From Candidatus Saccharimonadota bacterium (GTDB lineage: Bacteria; Patescibacteriota; Saccharimonadia; Saccharimonadales; Saccharimonadaceae): DNA of 42,095 nt. The stretch is from contig JAFWKF010000006.1 in the NCBI GenBank assembly GCA_017533605.1, forward strand, positions 1-42,095, read 5' to 3'. This document shows, one piece after another, positions 16,751-42,095 of this stretch (position 1 is its first letter; every line of letters starts with the position of its first letter). A program made the translations under genes and the position numbers. Below the pieces are notes generated by a model that was given only the letters and a program-made list of their open reading frames with translations, did not search any database and had not been told where the DNA came from.

Positions 16751-19700
16751 TTACATGTGCTTGTAGAATTTTTTCCTAGCAATATATCTATAAGTACCAT
16801 ACCCACCAATACCTACTAGTACAATTCCGATAGCCACATATAGTATCTGGCCACCGCCCGCGCCCTCAGAAGCGAGTCTAGTAAACAAACCTGTTTCAGG
16901 AGCAGGTGGAATCACGCTGACAGTTTCATCTTCGTTATTAATATCTTTATGTTCTAAGATTAGTTCATCTTCATAGTACAAACTTTCGAAGATTACGAGG
17001 TCAGCACCACCAAGGTTAGCAGTATTAAACTTAAAGGTCATTGTAGTTTCACCACAAGCCTCAGTTGGAGTAAATGTAGTAGAAGCTTCTACTGGTTCGC
17101 TATTAACTAAAAGTCCATTTCCAGTCTTTTTATTCATCAATATACCTTTAACTGTGTATTCTACGCCTGGTTTCAAACAGTATTTCACTAAATCTTTGAT
17201 TTCTACATCCTCATCAAGTGGCAAGAGCTTTTCGCCAGTTTTGGCATTCGTTGCGTAAGTCTTCAAGCTGATTAGCTCAATAGTTTGACCTAAATCATTA
17301 ATATCATTGTGTCTAGTAATCACGTCGTCCTTGTACCACAGAGTTTCAAATACTACCACTTCTTTACCGCCTAGCTCACTGGCGTCAAAGGTAAATTCCA
17401 TCTCAATTTCGCCACAGTCTTCCTCGGAGCGTAGGTTGACACTGCTTTCTACCGTTTCACCGTTAATTAGAAGTGGTTCACCAGTAGATTTGTCCATCAA
17501 TATACCTTTAATCACAAAATTCGTATTTGGCTTGACGCAGTATTCAATTTTATCGATGATTTTAGCTTCTTTGGAAATTTCAACGTAATGATCACCATCC
17601 TCAGCATCAGTTGCCGTGGTACCAAGGCTAAACTTAGTACAAGCATTGTTCCAGTCTCCTAAATCAACTACTTGATTAGCGCTATTAATTGTCACGGTGA
17701 CTTTTTGGTTTAGAATACCCGTACAGAAGAGATTTGAACCACAGCGTAGCTCTTGAATTAGGTACGTACCATATGGCAACGCTCCTACTTCATCACGTAC
17801 CGGCACGCCATCGCCGTTTTTATCTAGCCCAAACCAAGAGCCATAACCAGAGAAGAAGAATGGATCAACTTCATCATATAGCGCATCGTAGCCATTAGTA
17901 TTAATAGAGTGGAGAATGAAACTAGATGAAGTATCTACCACGCCATCATCGTTACTCACCACGATGTGAGTTTCTTTAATTTGGTTGTGCTCATCAATCG
18001 AGGAAATACTAAAGATTACATCACGCATTGGCACGTTATTATTGGCATCCATCTTTACAAATCTAATGTCGCCACGAATCGGCTGGTTCGCAACTGTAGT
18101 GGAAACATTCACCGTATTATTAGTTGGGATTGTTACGGTCTTTGCTTCTGTATTTAGCATATACCCTTCACTAGTTTCTTCCTCTTTTATAATGTAAGTA
18201 CCATACGGAAGATTTTCGAATGTTACACTACAATCGCCATCAGACATAGTTTTCGTAGTGATAATAGAACCTTTCGGCTTTGGACTGCCATTATAATATA
18301 CTGCATTTGTAGAGTCATTAGTGATAGAGAATCTAACACCGGCAAATGAAAGGCCATCGCTATTAGTACAACTACCAGTATCAGCATCCACCTTATTTAC
18401 AGTAACTTTACCTTTGATGCTAGTATTACTAAACTCCGTTTCAGCTGACGAGCCACCAAGAGTTACGGTTTTAGAATCCGTGTCGGCGGTATAACCTGTA
18501 CTTGCTGAAGCCTCTCTTACTTCATACGCACCGTAAGGTAAATTGTCAAATTCTACACTACATGCGCCAGTAGCAATAGTTTTAGAAGCAATCTTAGCAT
18601 TATTAGCGTAAGATTGACCACCATATTTTACTGGACCACCAGTCTTATTATAAAGATCAAATACTGTACCAACTAACGATAAATTACCAGTTGGAGTACA
18701 ACTACCAGTATCTTTATCAGTCTTGTTAACTACAATTTTGCCTTTCTTCGGAGTGTTAGTAAACGTTACAGAAGTAGATGTACCAGAAAGACCAACATTT
18801 TTATCTGAATCCCCAATGTATCCAGTTGGCACAGAACTTTCTTGAATTGTGTATTGCCCATAAGGTAAGTTAGTGAATTCTACTGAACAGTTTCCGTTAG
18901 AAAGAGTTTTAGTGTCGATCGTACCATTATTTTGTATTACATTACCGCCATATTTCACCGGACCACCAGTCTTGTTAATCAAAGTAAATTTGATGCCATT
19001 AAATGAAAGGCCTGCGGTATTTGTACAACTACCAGTATCTGCGTCAACTTTGTTTACGGTAATTTTACCTTTGTTTGGCGTATTGGAAAAACTAATTGAA
19101 ACACTGCCACTATTCAAAGTGACTATTTGATCGCCAGCCCCCGAATAGCCTGAAGGAGCGGCTGTTTCTCTAACCGTATAATTGCCATATGGTACATTCT
19201 CAAATGTTACACTACACGAACCGCCAGAAAGACTTTTAGTGGCAACAGTTTCACCGCTACTATTAAGTAATGCAAAAGTGGTACCATTAAGCGAAAGAGC
19301 CGCCGAAGTAGTACAGCTACCAGTATCTGAGTCAATCTTATTAACTGTGATACTGCCATATTGAATATCCGGCGCCTCAATCCACATTACACGCTGTTTT
19401 CCACCAGTATCCGTAGTCGAGTATAATTTATATTTGCTGGCCGCTTGCCATTTTTCATCATTGGTAGAAATCATTTGCCCTAAATCAGCATTCACTGTTT
19501 GCAACCATTCTTTCTGGGCATCACTAAAACCAGTTGTGTCTCCACCATTAATATAACCAACTATGCCATGGACATACGCATATCTTAATGCAAAATCGGA
19601 CTCAGGTATAGTTTGAAAAATAGTATTAAGGTATGTTTTATTAGCAGGCGTATCGACGAAGAATATATAAAGAATTAATTTAACTTTTCCATTATCGACT

Positions 19701-20005
19701 GTGTCACTAGTGAGACCGGCATGATAATGAACATTCGTTGGCGTCCCGAGTCTAGGATCAGCACACATACCGTAATACTGATTCGTGCCAGTATTAACCG
19801 TAAAAATATTCGTTTCCCAACCAGTGTCACCATATCTAATCTCTTGTCCAGGATAGATTTCCACAGCCGCTCCATCCTGCGTATTAGCGCTAACCTTGTT
19901 TTGAACATGCCTTATAATGGCAAACATCGCCAAGATAGCCAAAACAAAACCGACAAAAACAAGCAGCGCTCGTTTAAAAATCCTCTTCTTACTTAGAACA
20001 AACAT
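16751..20005 (-). CDS. Large SpaA/VaFE-repeat surface adhesin with sorting signal
   Basis: A 1084-aa cell-surface protein. Basic N-terminus plus membrane/signal segment (about 11-33); a head domain (about 45-215) with GMCADPRLG around Cys81, perhaps TQXA/thioester-like; prealbumin-like SpaA repeats beginning near residues 217, 314, 423 and 533 (each VNKxDxDTGSC...CSVxFxNxPYG) and a divergent fifth from 644; two VaFE/T-Q ester-type domains (about 797-909 and 913-1032, with VVFETLWY and HNDINDLGQT); an APETG motif (1035-1039); a membrane helix (about 1054-1075) and a basic tail. This is the layout of sortase-anchored pilin/adhesin stalks. Each SpaA repeat has a Cys pair. A 68-nt leader with AAAGGA lies upstream. 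Ligand unknown. Confidence 0.88.
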   Translation of the reverse strand: MFVLSKKRIFKRALLVFVGFVLAILAMFAIIRHVQNKVSANTQDGAAVEIYPGQEIRYGDTGWETNIFTVNTGTNQYYGMCADPRLGTPTNVHYHAGLTSDTVDNGKVKLILYIFFVDTPANKTYLNTIFQTIPESDFALRYAYVHGIVGYINGGDTTGFSDAQKEWLQTVNADLGQMISTNDEKWQAASKYKLYSTTDTGGKQRVMWIEAPDIQYGSITVNKIDSDTGSCTTSAALSLNGTTFALLNSSGETVATKSLSGGSCSVTFENVPYGNYTVRETAAPSGYSGAGDQIVTLNSGSVSISFSNTPNKGKITVNKVDADTGSCTNTAGLSFNGIKFTLINKTGGPVKYGGNVIQNNGTIDTKTLSNGNCSVEFTNLPYGQYTIQESSVPTGYIGDSDKNVGLSGTSTSVTFTNTPKKGKIVVNKTDKDTGSCTPTGNLSLVGTVFDLYNKTGGPVKYGGQSYANNAKIASKTIATGACSVEFDNLPYGAYEVREASASTGYTADTDSKTVTLGGSSAETEFSNTSIKGKVTVNKVDADTGSCTNSDGLSFAGVRFSITNDSTNAVYYNGSPKPKGSIITTKTMSDGDCSVTFENLPYGTYIIKEEETSEGYMLNTEAKTVTIPTNNTVNVSTTVANQPIRGDIRFVKMDANNNVPMRDVIFSISSIDEHNQIKETHIVVSNDDGVVDTSSSFILHSINTNGYDALYDEVDPFFFSGYGSWFGLDKNGDGVPVRDEVGALPYGTYLIQELRCGSNLFCTGILNQKVTVTINSANQVVDLGDWNNACTKFSLGTTATDAEDGDHYVEISKEAKIIDKIEYCVKPNTNFVIKGILMDKSTGEPLLINGETVESSVNLRSEEDCGEIEMEFTFDASELGGKEVVVFETLWYKDDVITRHNDINDLGQTIELISLKTYATNAKTGEKLLPLDEDVEIKDLVKYCLKPGVEYTVKGILMNKKTGNGLLVNSEPVEASTTFTPTEACGETTMTFKFNTANLGGADLVIFESLYYEDELILEHKDINNEDETVSVIPPAPETGLFTRLASEGAGGGQILYVAIGIVLVGIGGYGTYRYIARKKFYKHM

Positions 20006-25158: not shown

Positions 25159-26366
25159 GACGCTTCTTTCTAGGACTCGCCGCAAATTACAACCGAGAAG
25201 ATCGCCATTCTCAGCTTTTTACGATTGGTCGCAAAGAAGATTACAAAGATCTGCAACAATTCTTACTCCGTAAATACACCGGCGAACGTGCCTTACTTAC
25301 CAAAAACGGCCGTTCGGCTCTTGCTCTTGCCTTAAAAGCCTATTTTGACAAAGGCGACAAAATCCTGGTTAATGGTTTTACTTGCTATGCCGTTTATGAA
25401 GCCATCAAAGCCGCCGGCCTAGAGCCAGTCTTCGCCGACATCACCAAAACCGACCTCAATTTTAATGCTAATACTTTAAATGACGCATGGGCGGGTTCTG
25501 ATAATTCAAGACCATGGGCGGGTGACGAAGCTGGGGGGACCCCCGCCGCGCGCAGCGAAGCGAGCACGGTGGGGGAAACTGCGACGGCAGGACCCGCCCA
25601 GAGTAGCATTAAGGGTATCATCATTCAAAACACTCTCGGTCATCCCACCAATATCGTCGCCATTGAAAAATTCGCCACCGAGCACAATTTAATCATTATT
25701 GAAGATCTCGCCCACTGCGCTGGCGTAAAATACCCAGATGGCAGAGAAGTCGGTACGGTCGGCGCAGCTACCGCCTTATCATTCGGCAAAGACAAGTCCA
25801 TTGACACTGTTTCTGGTGGCGCCGTCATCTTCCGCCACCCCTATAAAAACCGAATCGAAGCGCCCTTCAAAACTCCGAAACTCTCTGATCATTTGCGCGC
25901 TAGATTTTACCCTACTTTTGGTGCAATTTGCCGCGTTCTCGCCCACATTCATCTTGGTGGCGCCTTAATGAGATTTCTAGTTAGAATTCACTGGGTTGAA
26001 AAATCCGCTGACAGCAAACTAGACTTAAAACGCAAACCCAGCAAGTTTGAAACCCGTCGTGCTCTTATCCAAATTAAAAGTCTCAGTAAATCCGGCGAAA
26101 AGCCTATTCGCGAATTTTACTTAGTTAAAAACCGCGCCGAAGTCCTGGCTAAACTAAAGAAATCCGGCTACTATTTTGACGCCTTTTGGTACGAAAAACC
26201 AGTTTCACCAGTCAGATATTACAAAAAAGTCCATTTCCCAGAAGAATCCTGCAAAAATGCAGTTTACGTGGCCGACCATATTATCAATTTGCCAACCTAT
26301 TATAAAAAGAACAGCCTCAAGGCCGCACGCGAAATCATCAAAGAATATCTAGAGGAGGAACAGTGA
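25155..26366 (+). CDS. DegT/DnrJ/EryC1-type PLP enzyme with in-frame repeat insertion
   Basis: A 403-aa fold-type I PLP protein of the DegT/DnrJ/EryC1/StrS group. Visible features are KNGRSALALALKA (cofactor phosphate region), IIIEDLAHCAG (Asp that holds the pyridine nitrogen) and SFGKDKSIDTVSGGA with Lys214 in the SFxxxK position for the Schiff base. Residues about 112-149 are a GC-rich insertion not expected in the family (see repeat at 25487-25600); it replaces the loop before the strand KGIIIQNTLG and keeps the frame. Members transaminate sugars or related ketones. The start overlaps the hydrolase stop and the stop overlaps the next GTG. The specific substrate is unknown. Confidence 0.85.
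   Translation: MRRFFLGLAANYNREDRHSQLFTIGRKEDYKDLQQFLLRKYTGERALLTKNGRSALALALKAYFDKGDKILVNGFTCYAVYEAIKAAGLEPVFADITKTDLNFNANTLNDAWAGSDNSRPWAGDEAGGTPAARSEASTVGETATAGPAQSSIKGIIIQNTLGHPTNIVAIEKFATEHNLIIIEDLAHCAGVKYPDGREVGTVGAATALSFGKDKSIDTVSGGAVIFRHPYKNRIEAPFKTPKLSDHLRARFYPTFGAICRVLAHIHLGGALMRFLVRIHWVEKSADSKLDLKRKPSKFETRRALIQIKSLSKSGEKPIREFYLVKNRAEVLAKLKKSGYYFDAFWYEKPVSPVRYYKKVHFPEESCKNAVYVADHIINLPTYYKKNSLKAAREIIKEYLEEEQ
25487..25600. repeat. GC-rich palindromic element inserted in a coding gene
   Basis: About 114 bp (38 codons) of mainly G/C sequence in an AT-rich genome. ATGGGCGGGT occurs twice as a direct repeat (about 25487 and 25514) and the second copy is matched by the inverted arm ACCCGCCC (25592-25599). 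An inner GGGGG-A-CCCCC hairpin is also present. The segment GCGAGcacGG...GGGGGAAACT-GCGA matches the reverse strand of the repeat at 42011-42056, so the two appear to be one family. Confidence 0.7.
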
Positions 26367-39098: not shown

Positions 39099-39114
39099 CA
39101 TTATTACAATAATA

Positions 39115-39203
39115 ATATCAAGAAGGGGTGAGGGAGCGGCCCGACGACCCCCTGCCAACCTAGCTAAGCCAAGGTGGTAATTCCGACCAGAAAGGAAAGA
39201 TAT
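39115..39203 (+). promoter_or_regulatory. SAM riboswitch (SAM-I clan) overlapping the metK start
   Basis: The leader matches the SAM-I/SAM-IV superfamily core: ATCAAGA, then GGTGAGGGAGCGGCCCGA (P2 and kink-turn region), CTGCCAACC, and AAGGTGGTAATTCC. P1 can form between ATATC (39115-39119) and GATAT (39199-39203), so its 3' strand includes the A and U of the metK AUG (39202). A hairpin TTCC (39181-39184)/GGAA (39194-39197) covers the Shine-Dalgarno AAAGGAAAG. There is no terminator, so translational repression by SAM is predicted. Confidence 0.85.
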
Positions 39204-40164
39204 GTTCTATAGAACTGCGGAGAGTGTTTCTCCAAAACATCCAGATAAACTATGCGACCAAATCAGCGATGCGATTTTGGATGCTTACTTAAAAGAAGAT
39301 CCTAATGCCCGCGTTGCTGCCGAAACTTGTGGCGGCCACGGTGTAGTTTTTGTAACCGGTGAAATCACTTCTACGGCTAGCGACGTAGATATCCCAGCCA
39401 TTGTTAAACGCATTGCCGGCGACAATGAAGTTCACACTAAAATTGTTAAACAGTCTCCAGAAATCGCTGGCGGCGTAGACACTGGCGGTGCTGGCGACCA
39501 GGGCATCATGATTGGATATGCCTGCGACGAAACTCCTGAAATGTTACCACTAGAAGTAGTTTTATCTCGCCGGCTCAATCAATTTATTTACGACAAATAT
39601 CCATACGACGGCAAAACCCAAATCACCATCGCACCAGATGGCACGATTGATTCTATCGTAGCTAGCTTCCAAAATGTACCTAAAAAAGAACTTGAAGAAA
39701 TGGTCAAAAAATTTATCGCTGACCAAAAACTAGAAGGGAAATTAGAGCTCCACATCAACCCAGCCGGCGACTGGAAACAAGGCGGTTTTGAAGCTGATAC
39801 TGGCCTCACTGGCCGCAAACTAATCGTAGATAACTACGGCCCACGCATAGCTATCGGCGGCGGCTGTTACTCCGGCAAAGACCCATCCAAAGTTGATCGC
39901 TCCGCCGCTTACATGGCCCGCAAAATCGCGGTTGACTATCTAAGGAAGCGCAAAGCCCACGAAGTCTTAGTTCGTCTAGCTTATGCCATCGGCTATGCCG
40001 AACCACTAGAAAAAACCGTCATTATTGACGGAAAACCCGAAGAAATTGAAGGCTACGACCTAACCCCACGCGGCATCATTAAATTCTTAGACTTAAAACG
40101 CCCAATTTACGAAAAAACCGCGCGTTACGGCCACTACGGCGAAGGTTTTGACTGGGACAAATAA
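39202..40164 (+). CDS. metK: S-adenosylmethionine synthetase, short form
   Basis: A 320-aa MetK, roughly 60-80 residues shorter than typical bacterial enzymes. Retained motifs: SPKHPDKLCDQISDAILD (ATP-binding His), GGAGDQGIMIGYACDE (gating-loop region), DTGLTGRKLIVDNYGPRIAIGGGCYSGKDPSKVDRSAAYMARKI. It makes SAM from methionine and ATP; the SAM riboswitch in its leader closes the feedback loop. The C-terminus ends at HYGEGFDWDK without the usual tail. The ATG at 39202 follows AAAGGAAAG. Confidence 0.95.
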   Translation: MFYRTAESVSPKHPDKLCDQISDAILDAYLKEDPNARVAAETCGGHGVVFVTGEITSTASDVDIPAIVKRIAGDNEVHTKIVKQSPEIAGGVDTGGAGDQGIMIGYACDETPEMLPLEVVLSRRLNQFIYDKYPYDGKTQITIAPDGTIDSIVASFQNVPKKELEEMVKKFIADQKLEGKLELHINPAGDWKQGGFEADTGLTGRKLIVDNYGPRIAIGGGCYSGKDPSKVDRSAAYMARKIAVDYLRKRKAHEVLVRLAYAIGYAEPLEKTVIIDGKPEEIEGYDLTPRGIIKFLDLKRPIYEKTARYGHYGEGFDWDK

Positions 40165-42010: not shown

Positions 42011-42095
42011 GGGGGACTTTCGCGAGTTTCCCCCCGCCAAACTCGCGAAAGTCCCCAGCATTATGATCAGGGCCCCTGCGGGCTTCCCCCGCCAA
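42011..42095. repeat. GC-rich palindromic repeat at window end
   Basis: Perfect 18-bp arms (42012-42029 and 42039-42056) flank a 9-nt C-rich loop. A second hairpin GCGGG/CCCGC (42078-42082, 42088-42092) follows and the end CTTCCCCCGCCAA resembles the first loop TTCCCCCCGCCAA. No T-run, so it is not a classic terminator. The reverse strand shares a core with the insertion at 25487-25600. It may continue beyond the window. Confidence 0.75.

Follow-up and report, generated by a model that had tools for sequence, protein, structure and literature searches.

Dispersed palindromic DNA inserted in frame in conserved genes of ruminant-gut Saccharibacteria

In-frame palindromic elements are known mainly from Rickettsia, and to our knowledge no mechanism for their spread has been established. 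The Rickettsia palindromic elements (RPEs) are short dispersed palindromic repeats, which occur between genes as well as in frame in unrelated genes and form several families per genome (PMC10969869). REPs are extragenic sequences of 20–40 bp, most of which carry GTAG or CGTC tags (PMC3733652). Inverted repeats within protein-coding genes have also been described from nematomorph mitochondria (PMC6649704). There, each of the two arms encodes conserved regions of a protein, whereas the palindromes reported here are copies of a dispersed consensus element in tolerant loops of bacterial proteins.

We analyzed a window of 42,095 nucleotides from Candidatus Saccharimonadota bacterium (contig JAFWKF010000006.1, positions 1 to 42,095), in which an earlier note on the sequence had compared a GC-rich segment of a degT-like gene to RPEs. 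As an analogy this comparison fits, since the segment belongs to a family of short, dispersed palindromes that lie in frame in unrelated genes. Like RPEs, the members of this family (referred to as R1) form a stable hairpin, exist in several copies per genome, and are found both within genes and in intergenic positions. They differ from RPEs in their occurrence in another phylum (Patescibacteria), in a core of ~82 bp compared to ~150 bp, in their presence in genes in both orientations and across a genus and, weakly, an order, in their recurrence in the same loops of different species, and in the complementarity of the host flanks. RPEs are the closest known kind of element, and R1 appears to work like an RPE, a likeness that refers to behavior. 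Searches of the open-access literature, outside of which most subscription journals lie, gave no earlier report of palindromic inserts in Saccharibacteria or Patescibacteria.

The in-frame insert of the degT-like gene

The reading frame of the degT-like gene (Table 1) stays open across the GC-rich insert (70% GC versus ~45%), which encodes the peptide WAGSDNSRPWAGDEAGGTPAARSEASTVGETATAGPAQ. The insert had previously been placed at positions 25487–25600; its frame, its length of 114 bp or 38 codons and its GC-richness were confirmed, whereas its start was one base off (25488–25601). A repeat search of the sequence located both the direct arms (CATGGGCGGGT at 25486–25496 and 25513–25523) and the inverted arms (TGGGCGGGTTCTG at 25488–25500 and CAGGACCCGCCCA at 25588–25600) that had been described. 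The core of the insert (25514–25601) folded with −50.9 kcal/mol (z = −4.7 compared to dinucleotide shuffles), and in a BLASTN search the segment matched unrelated places of its own genome with E-values down to 6e-30. Hence, the core is far beyond what would be expected by chance.

Table 1 Positions of the degT-like gene, its insert and the arms and flanks of the palindrome in the window, and loci of other palindrome families.
Feature	Position	Strand	Evidence or remark
degT-like (DegT/DnrJ/EryC1/StrS) PLP aminotransferase gene, 403 aa	25155..26366	+	Pfam PF01041, E=1.2e-29, two stretches
Whole in-frame insert, 114 bp = 38 codons = residues W112-Q149	25488..25601	+	Sequence; missing in homologue L043
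Extra 5' piece TGGGCGGGTTCTG	25488..25500	+	Reverse-complement copy of the element's 3' end 25588-25600, 12/13 bases
Core copy of the dispersed palindromic element (86 bp, family model R1)	25515..25600	+	cmsearch 67.2 bits, full-length 1-82; BLASTN copies in own genome
Outer stem 5' arm TGGGCGGGT	25515..25523	+	Pairs with 25592-25600; consensus helix 1
Outer stem 3' arm ACCCGCCCA	25592..25600	+	Pairs with 25515-25523; consensus helix 1
Inner hairpin 5' arm CCCCCGCCG	25540..25548	+	Pairs with 25567-25575 in fold; consensus helix 3
Inner hairpin 3' arm CGGTGGGGG	25567..25575	+	Pairs with 25540-25548 in fold
Host-gene flank TTAATGCTA	25462..25470	+	Inverted repeat with 25604-25612; palindrome outreaches insert
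Host-gene flank TAGCATTAA	25604..25612	+	Inverted-repeat partner of 25462-25470
Second-family loci	L236:1669-1788; L245:2650-2769; L278 = G000:C2:34277-34348 (own genome)		
Further palindromes in ArgRS/DegT loops	L233, L234, L238, L246, L050, L053, L056, L057		

The organisms in which the compared DegT loci were found are Candidatus Saccharibacteria, mainly from the ruminant gut. As the earlier note had anticipated, the nearest homologues lack the segment (the closest one, L043, shares 78% aligned identity), and at the same loop others contain R1 in reverse orientation or inserts of unrelated kinds. Distant homologues having the segment as ordinary protein sequence were not encountered. In four other species the same loop is occupied by R1, in sense orientation in L059 and in antisense orientation in L052, L108 and L064, the last with a weak match of 25 bits. 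The length of this loop also varies among many DegT homologues, as would be expected of an ordinary variable low-complexity protein loop that was expanded by chance. However, the same DNA, with a conserved DNA hairpin, is found at intergenic sites and within unrelated genes, in either orientation. It is therefore not a simple variable loop, and chance expansion can practically be dismissed as an explanation.

An AlphaFold2 model of the DegT-like protein, based on 42 aligned DegT sequences, had a mean pLDDT of 86.8 and matched PDB structures of sugar aminotransferases (Foldseek E 4e-15). Residues 119–148 were below 50; this disordered loop falls between a helix (105–117) and a strand (152–158), and the remaining fold was confident. 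In this one modeled protein the insert is thus predicted to be a disordered loop in an intact fold and, as a surface loop, to be compatible with that fold, as in RPEs.

The core of the insert had also been reported to match an intergenic repeat at 42011–42056, and this match did not hold. The latter is a perfect 18-bp hairpin with a 9-nt loop near the contig end, exists as a single copy and gave no match to the R1 covariance model. We rejected it as a member of R1, its only other match in the genome being its own palindromic reverse. The letters common to both (GCGAG..GGYGGGGG..AAACT, with one extra G) look like a chance similarity between two GC-rich hairpins. Elsewhere in the window, a SAM riboswitch (Rfam RF00162, 62.6 bits) was detected on the plus strand at 39112–39206, at the 5' end of the gene at 39202–40164, and a 1084-aa open reading frame on the minus strand (16751–20005) with internal tandem repeats of ~327 bp at 18195–19351 likely encodes a repeat-domain surface protein.

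Dispersal of the element and the genes that it occupies

In the genome to which the window belongs (593,307 bp in 6 contigs, 89.5% complete), a covariance model of R1 built from 31 copies detected 14 copies. Seven of them lie in frame within conserved genes, namely degT, an RNA pseudouridine synthase gene (S4), the exonuclease I gene, argS (two copies), the diacylglycerol kinase gene and topA, and copies also occur between genes. This result refutes the option, raised in the earlier note, that the genome might contain no other copies, and many more were found in the genus. There, R1 was present in 29 of 60 genomes of ruminant-gut Saccharibacteria with 1 to 27 copies each, and its presence was patchy from species to species. 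Across the order, 16 of 149 genomes had matches, those outside the genus being weak (<50 bits); in the six out-of-genus matches that were read, a GGGTGRC...CAGGACCC-like frame and the hairpin were kept. No R1 copy was found in phage, plasmid and viral collections, a single viral pattern match being rejected as a chance hit that lacks the hairpin, and no curated Rfam family matches the element. These data show a palindromic repeat family which is dispersed, lies in frame in conserved genes, is present or absent across species, occurs in both orientations and has a conserved hairpin.

Copies were read together with their flanks and regarded as inside a gene if they were located in an open reading frame of ≥180 aa with ≥45 aa on either side. 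By this definition, 67 of 140 non-redundant copies were inside long open reading frames (45 sense and 22 antisense), and several of the remaining 73 were located immediately upstream of a TATAAT box. The intergenic copies L019, L022, L033, L134, L194, L200, L215, L216, L218 and L261 sit at the −35 position just upstream of TATAAT-like −10 boxes, and an effect of such copies on transcription is possible.

Pfam domains were present in all 25 interrupted proteins checked, most of which are conserved housekeeping enzymes. These include 20 open reading frames scanned in a further round, all with conserved domains (TopA, ObgE, IleRS, YchF, QueA, UvrB, PheT, BipA, class-V aminotransferase, MurB, amidase, Tgt, MnmA, DNA polymerase I, E1-E2 ATPase, FemAB, penicillin-binding protein, TyrRS, TruB and TsaE). 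The 45 sense copies were distributed over the three reading frames as 31, 12 and 2, and the nearly unused frame is the plus-strand frame that is closed by a conserved TGA in GGGTGACG. On average, the element has 4.09 open frames compared to 4.27 predicted from its dinucleotide content. Selection for open reading frames, considered as a candidate, was thus unsupported after the dinucleotide control, and a plain shuffle is misleading in this respect. Since the frames are no more open than the dinucleotide content predicts, the data give no sign that the element evolved for translation.

The same loops were used repeatedly across species in DagK (L009, L221, L141), QueA (L164, L201, L203), ObgE (L181, L184, L193), exonuclease I (L003, L021, L037, L173) and YchF (L017, L034, L205). 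Subtype or orientation mostly varies among the copies of a given loop, and the best reading is therefore that each was inserted separately at a loop that tolerates it. One ArgRS was found per genome, and argS of the window's own genome contains two R1 copies; in an alignment of the ArgRS sequences of the genus, the two corresponding sites were empty in most relatives or contained other low-complexity inserts. In a topoisomerase I gene (L271; G178:C2), an antisense copy of the element appears as the protein insert SAGPAVASSPTHAGAGVPQATSPAD, and the topA gene of the own genome likewise has a copy (L214).

Hairpin covariation, flank complementarity and modes of spread

The element consensus of ~82 bp comprises three stems. 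The outermost one is TNRRCGGGT/ACCCGYYNA, the second consists of six pairs, and the innermost is a hairpin of a C-run and a G-run of variable length. Conserved unpaired bases (GA opposite GCAGG) form asymmetric internal loops. Six of eight folded copies had z-scores of −3.9 to −6.9. In an alignment of 92 copies, 96.4% of the pair cells were standard pairs and the covariation score was 0.541 compared to 0.145 after shuffling (reached in 0 of 500 shuffles) and ≤0.10 with the partners slid by 1–3 columns; this alignment was fitted to the covariance model, which favors such a result. A MAFFT alignment of 31 copies agrees, with two-sided changes in 13 of 20 pairs. One-sided changes were rare (in helix 2, 7 one-sided versus 191 two-sided cells), and G.U accounted for 2.7% of the paired cells.

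Stems of RNA under selection normally contain more G.U pairs. The covariation of the R1 stems almost without G.U therefore points to a process at the DNA level, either recognition of the hairpin or correction of its arms by template switching. If each copy were a structured RNA or aptamer that is functional where it sits, this would account for the three covarying stems, the conserved internal loops and the weakly related sequences in further families of the order. Such a role is very unlikely, as the copies occupy sense, antisense and intergenic positions, are not tied to a single orientation and gene class, are patchily distributed across species, match no Rfam family and nearly lack G.U pairs.

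Complementarity was also observed beyond the element. The flanks of 11 coding copies had an inverted local score ≥10 (1.7 expected), and 22 of the other copies did so (3.2 expected), a non-coding excess that is due in part to promoter motifs in facing orientation. A displaced control, with flanks drawn from 100 bp farther away, was at background level (4 of 139).

A second palindromic family, unrelated to R1, was detected with a 72-bp core from an ArgRS insert (core GAGCATGTTTGGCGACGGG...GGGAGCG) and had 22 matches in seven of eight genomes, one of them in the own genome. All 11 copies that were read are inside open reading frames (with in-frame insertions in ArgRS, a TsaD-like gene and further genes), and most have copy-specific complementary arms of ~17–25 bp, often with one bulged base. 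At one ArgRS site in four species, 19 to 22 of 23 arm pairs of this family were Watson–Crick pairs, compared to 27–30% pairing in slid controls, and the coding flanks at this site shared 58–75% identity. At least four more kinds of inserts with long-palindrome DNA, for example RDDGSERRSKPRDDGRE, GGFRSAAARGLAREPHGDGRE and HEDLARAARSV, were noted in the ArgRS and DegT loops of other species. Saccharibacteria seem to host many coding palindrome families.

These arms and flanks bear on the alternative that template switching (quasipalindrome correction) maintains and lengthens the palindromes where they are, with mobility rare or secondary. Here, the polymerase would copy one arm from the other, and palindromy would spread into the host gene. 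Template switching is an established route for making and maintaining hairpins (PMC8794818). It would fit the two-sided changes almost free of G.U intermediates, the inverted complementarity of the host flanks of coding copies, the copy-specific arms of the second family, whose complementarity at one ArgRS site persists in four species, and the extra 5' piece of the window copy, which repeats the 3' end of this copy as a reverse complement. However, template switching alone would not account for dozens of unlinked genes sharing one 82-bp consensus, and full correction would tend to erase the conserved asymmetric internal loops. We regard this alternative as possible, short of probable; as a partner process to mobility, template switching is compatible with the explanation that we prefer.

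REPs are tied to Y1 transposases. R1 resembles the REP/RAYT system in that its imperfect, GC-rich hairpins are dispersed and retain conserved unpaired bases. Movement as an REP-like or IS200/IS605-like single-strand element, by a Y1 (HUH) transposase recognizing an imperfect hairpin, would further be in line with the structure retained despite varying stem sequence, the lack of a target-duplication signal in the flank statistics and the TTACA-like 5' flank. A TTACA/GAGA-like flank was common to approximately half of the copies. Yet the Y1 transposase domain (Y1_Tnp, PF01797) was missing from all R1 carriers among the 60 genomes, being detected in two genomes without R1 matches, and no tetranucleotide foot of the GTAG, GGAG or CGTC type was seen at the hairpin base, where the flank consensus is TTACA..GAGA. 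R1 is not a REP with its RAYT, and movement by a Y1 transposase is rather unlikely.

Bacterial MITEs are likewise short and non-coding with inverted ends and many copies. If R1 were an ordinary MITE, derived from an element with a DDE transposase and marked by terminal inverted repeats and a duplicated target, this would explain the terminal inverted repeats and the dispersed non-coding copies of similar size. Against this reading, the terminal arms are not fixed and differ between copies yet remain paired, no excess of direct repeats indicative of target duplication was present in the flanks, and no long autonomous copy was found in four genomes. Solitary 3' ends considered as traces of autonomous copies were rejected, as they are deletion derivatives or, in one case, a copy cut by masked bases. 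Furthermore, rve, which was the only DDE family searched, was missing in the own genome and in most carriers. We consider a MITE origin distinctly unlikely.

Y1, rve and reverse transcriptase were all missing from the own genome (89.5% complete) and from G004 (96% complete), each of which has 14 copies. Reverse transcriptase (RVT_1) had one to four matches in each of 39 of the 60 genus genomes, and RT genes were missing from several R1 carriers. The compared species were too diverged to reveal a clean empty site at the DNA level, and they included no near-identical strain pair with a filled and an empty site.

Proposed origin and biological meaning

Taken together, the insert is very probably a copy of selfish, non-coding palindromic DNA of RPE-like character, which multiplied in ruminant-gut Saccharibacteria and would be translated within an enzyme that keeps its function. 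Its insertions fall into intergenic stretches and, in many cases, into genes. Usually five of its six frames are free of stops, so that insertions which keep the frame leave the gene open, and the product would gain a low-complexity surface loop of approximately 28–38 residues. Natural selection would keep only insertions at loops that tolerate changes in length, and this would explain why the same loops (DegT, DagK, QueA, ObgE, exonuclease I, YchF) recur across species. Probably, the bacteria make these enzymes with the extra loops, which would be translated and tolerated.

The copies would spread as DNA hairpins. A trans-acting enzyme, template switching during replication, or both would multiply them and keep their arms complementary, and template switching would also correct and extend the arms. 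On this basis we tentatively suggest that several families of coding palindromes may spread as DNA hairpins without a known transposase, and that insertion or later template switching may turn host flanks into arms, steadily remodeling genes at tolerant loops.

Our results place an RPE-type phenomenon in a distant, host-dependent lineage, where it affects many genomes and, within them, essential single-copy genes. For annotation, they imply that protein insertions in these genes which appear to be 'Saccharibacteria-specific' are repeated DNA and not adaptations. The apparently independent insertions in the same loops represent a large natural experiment on which loops tolerate 30 extra residues, on how coding palindromes originate, and on whether an enzyme or replication slippage does the copying. 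If spread by hairpin propagation holds true, it would represent a novel way for proteins to acquire loops, operating on essential enzymes across the genus.
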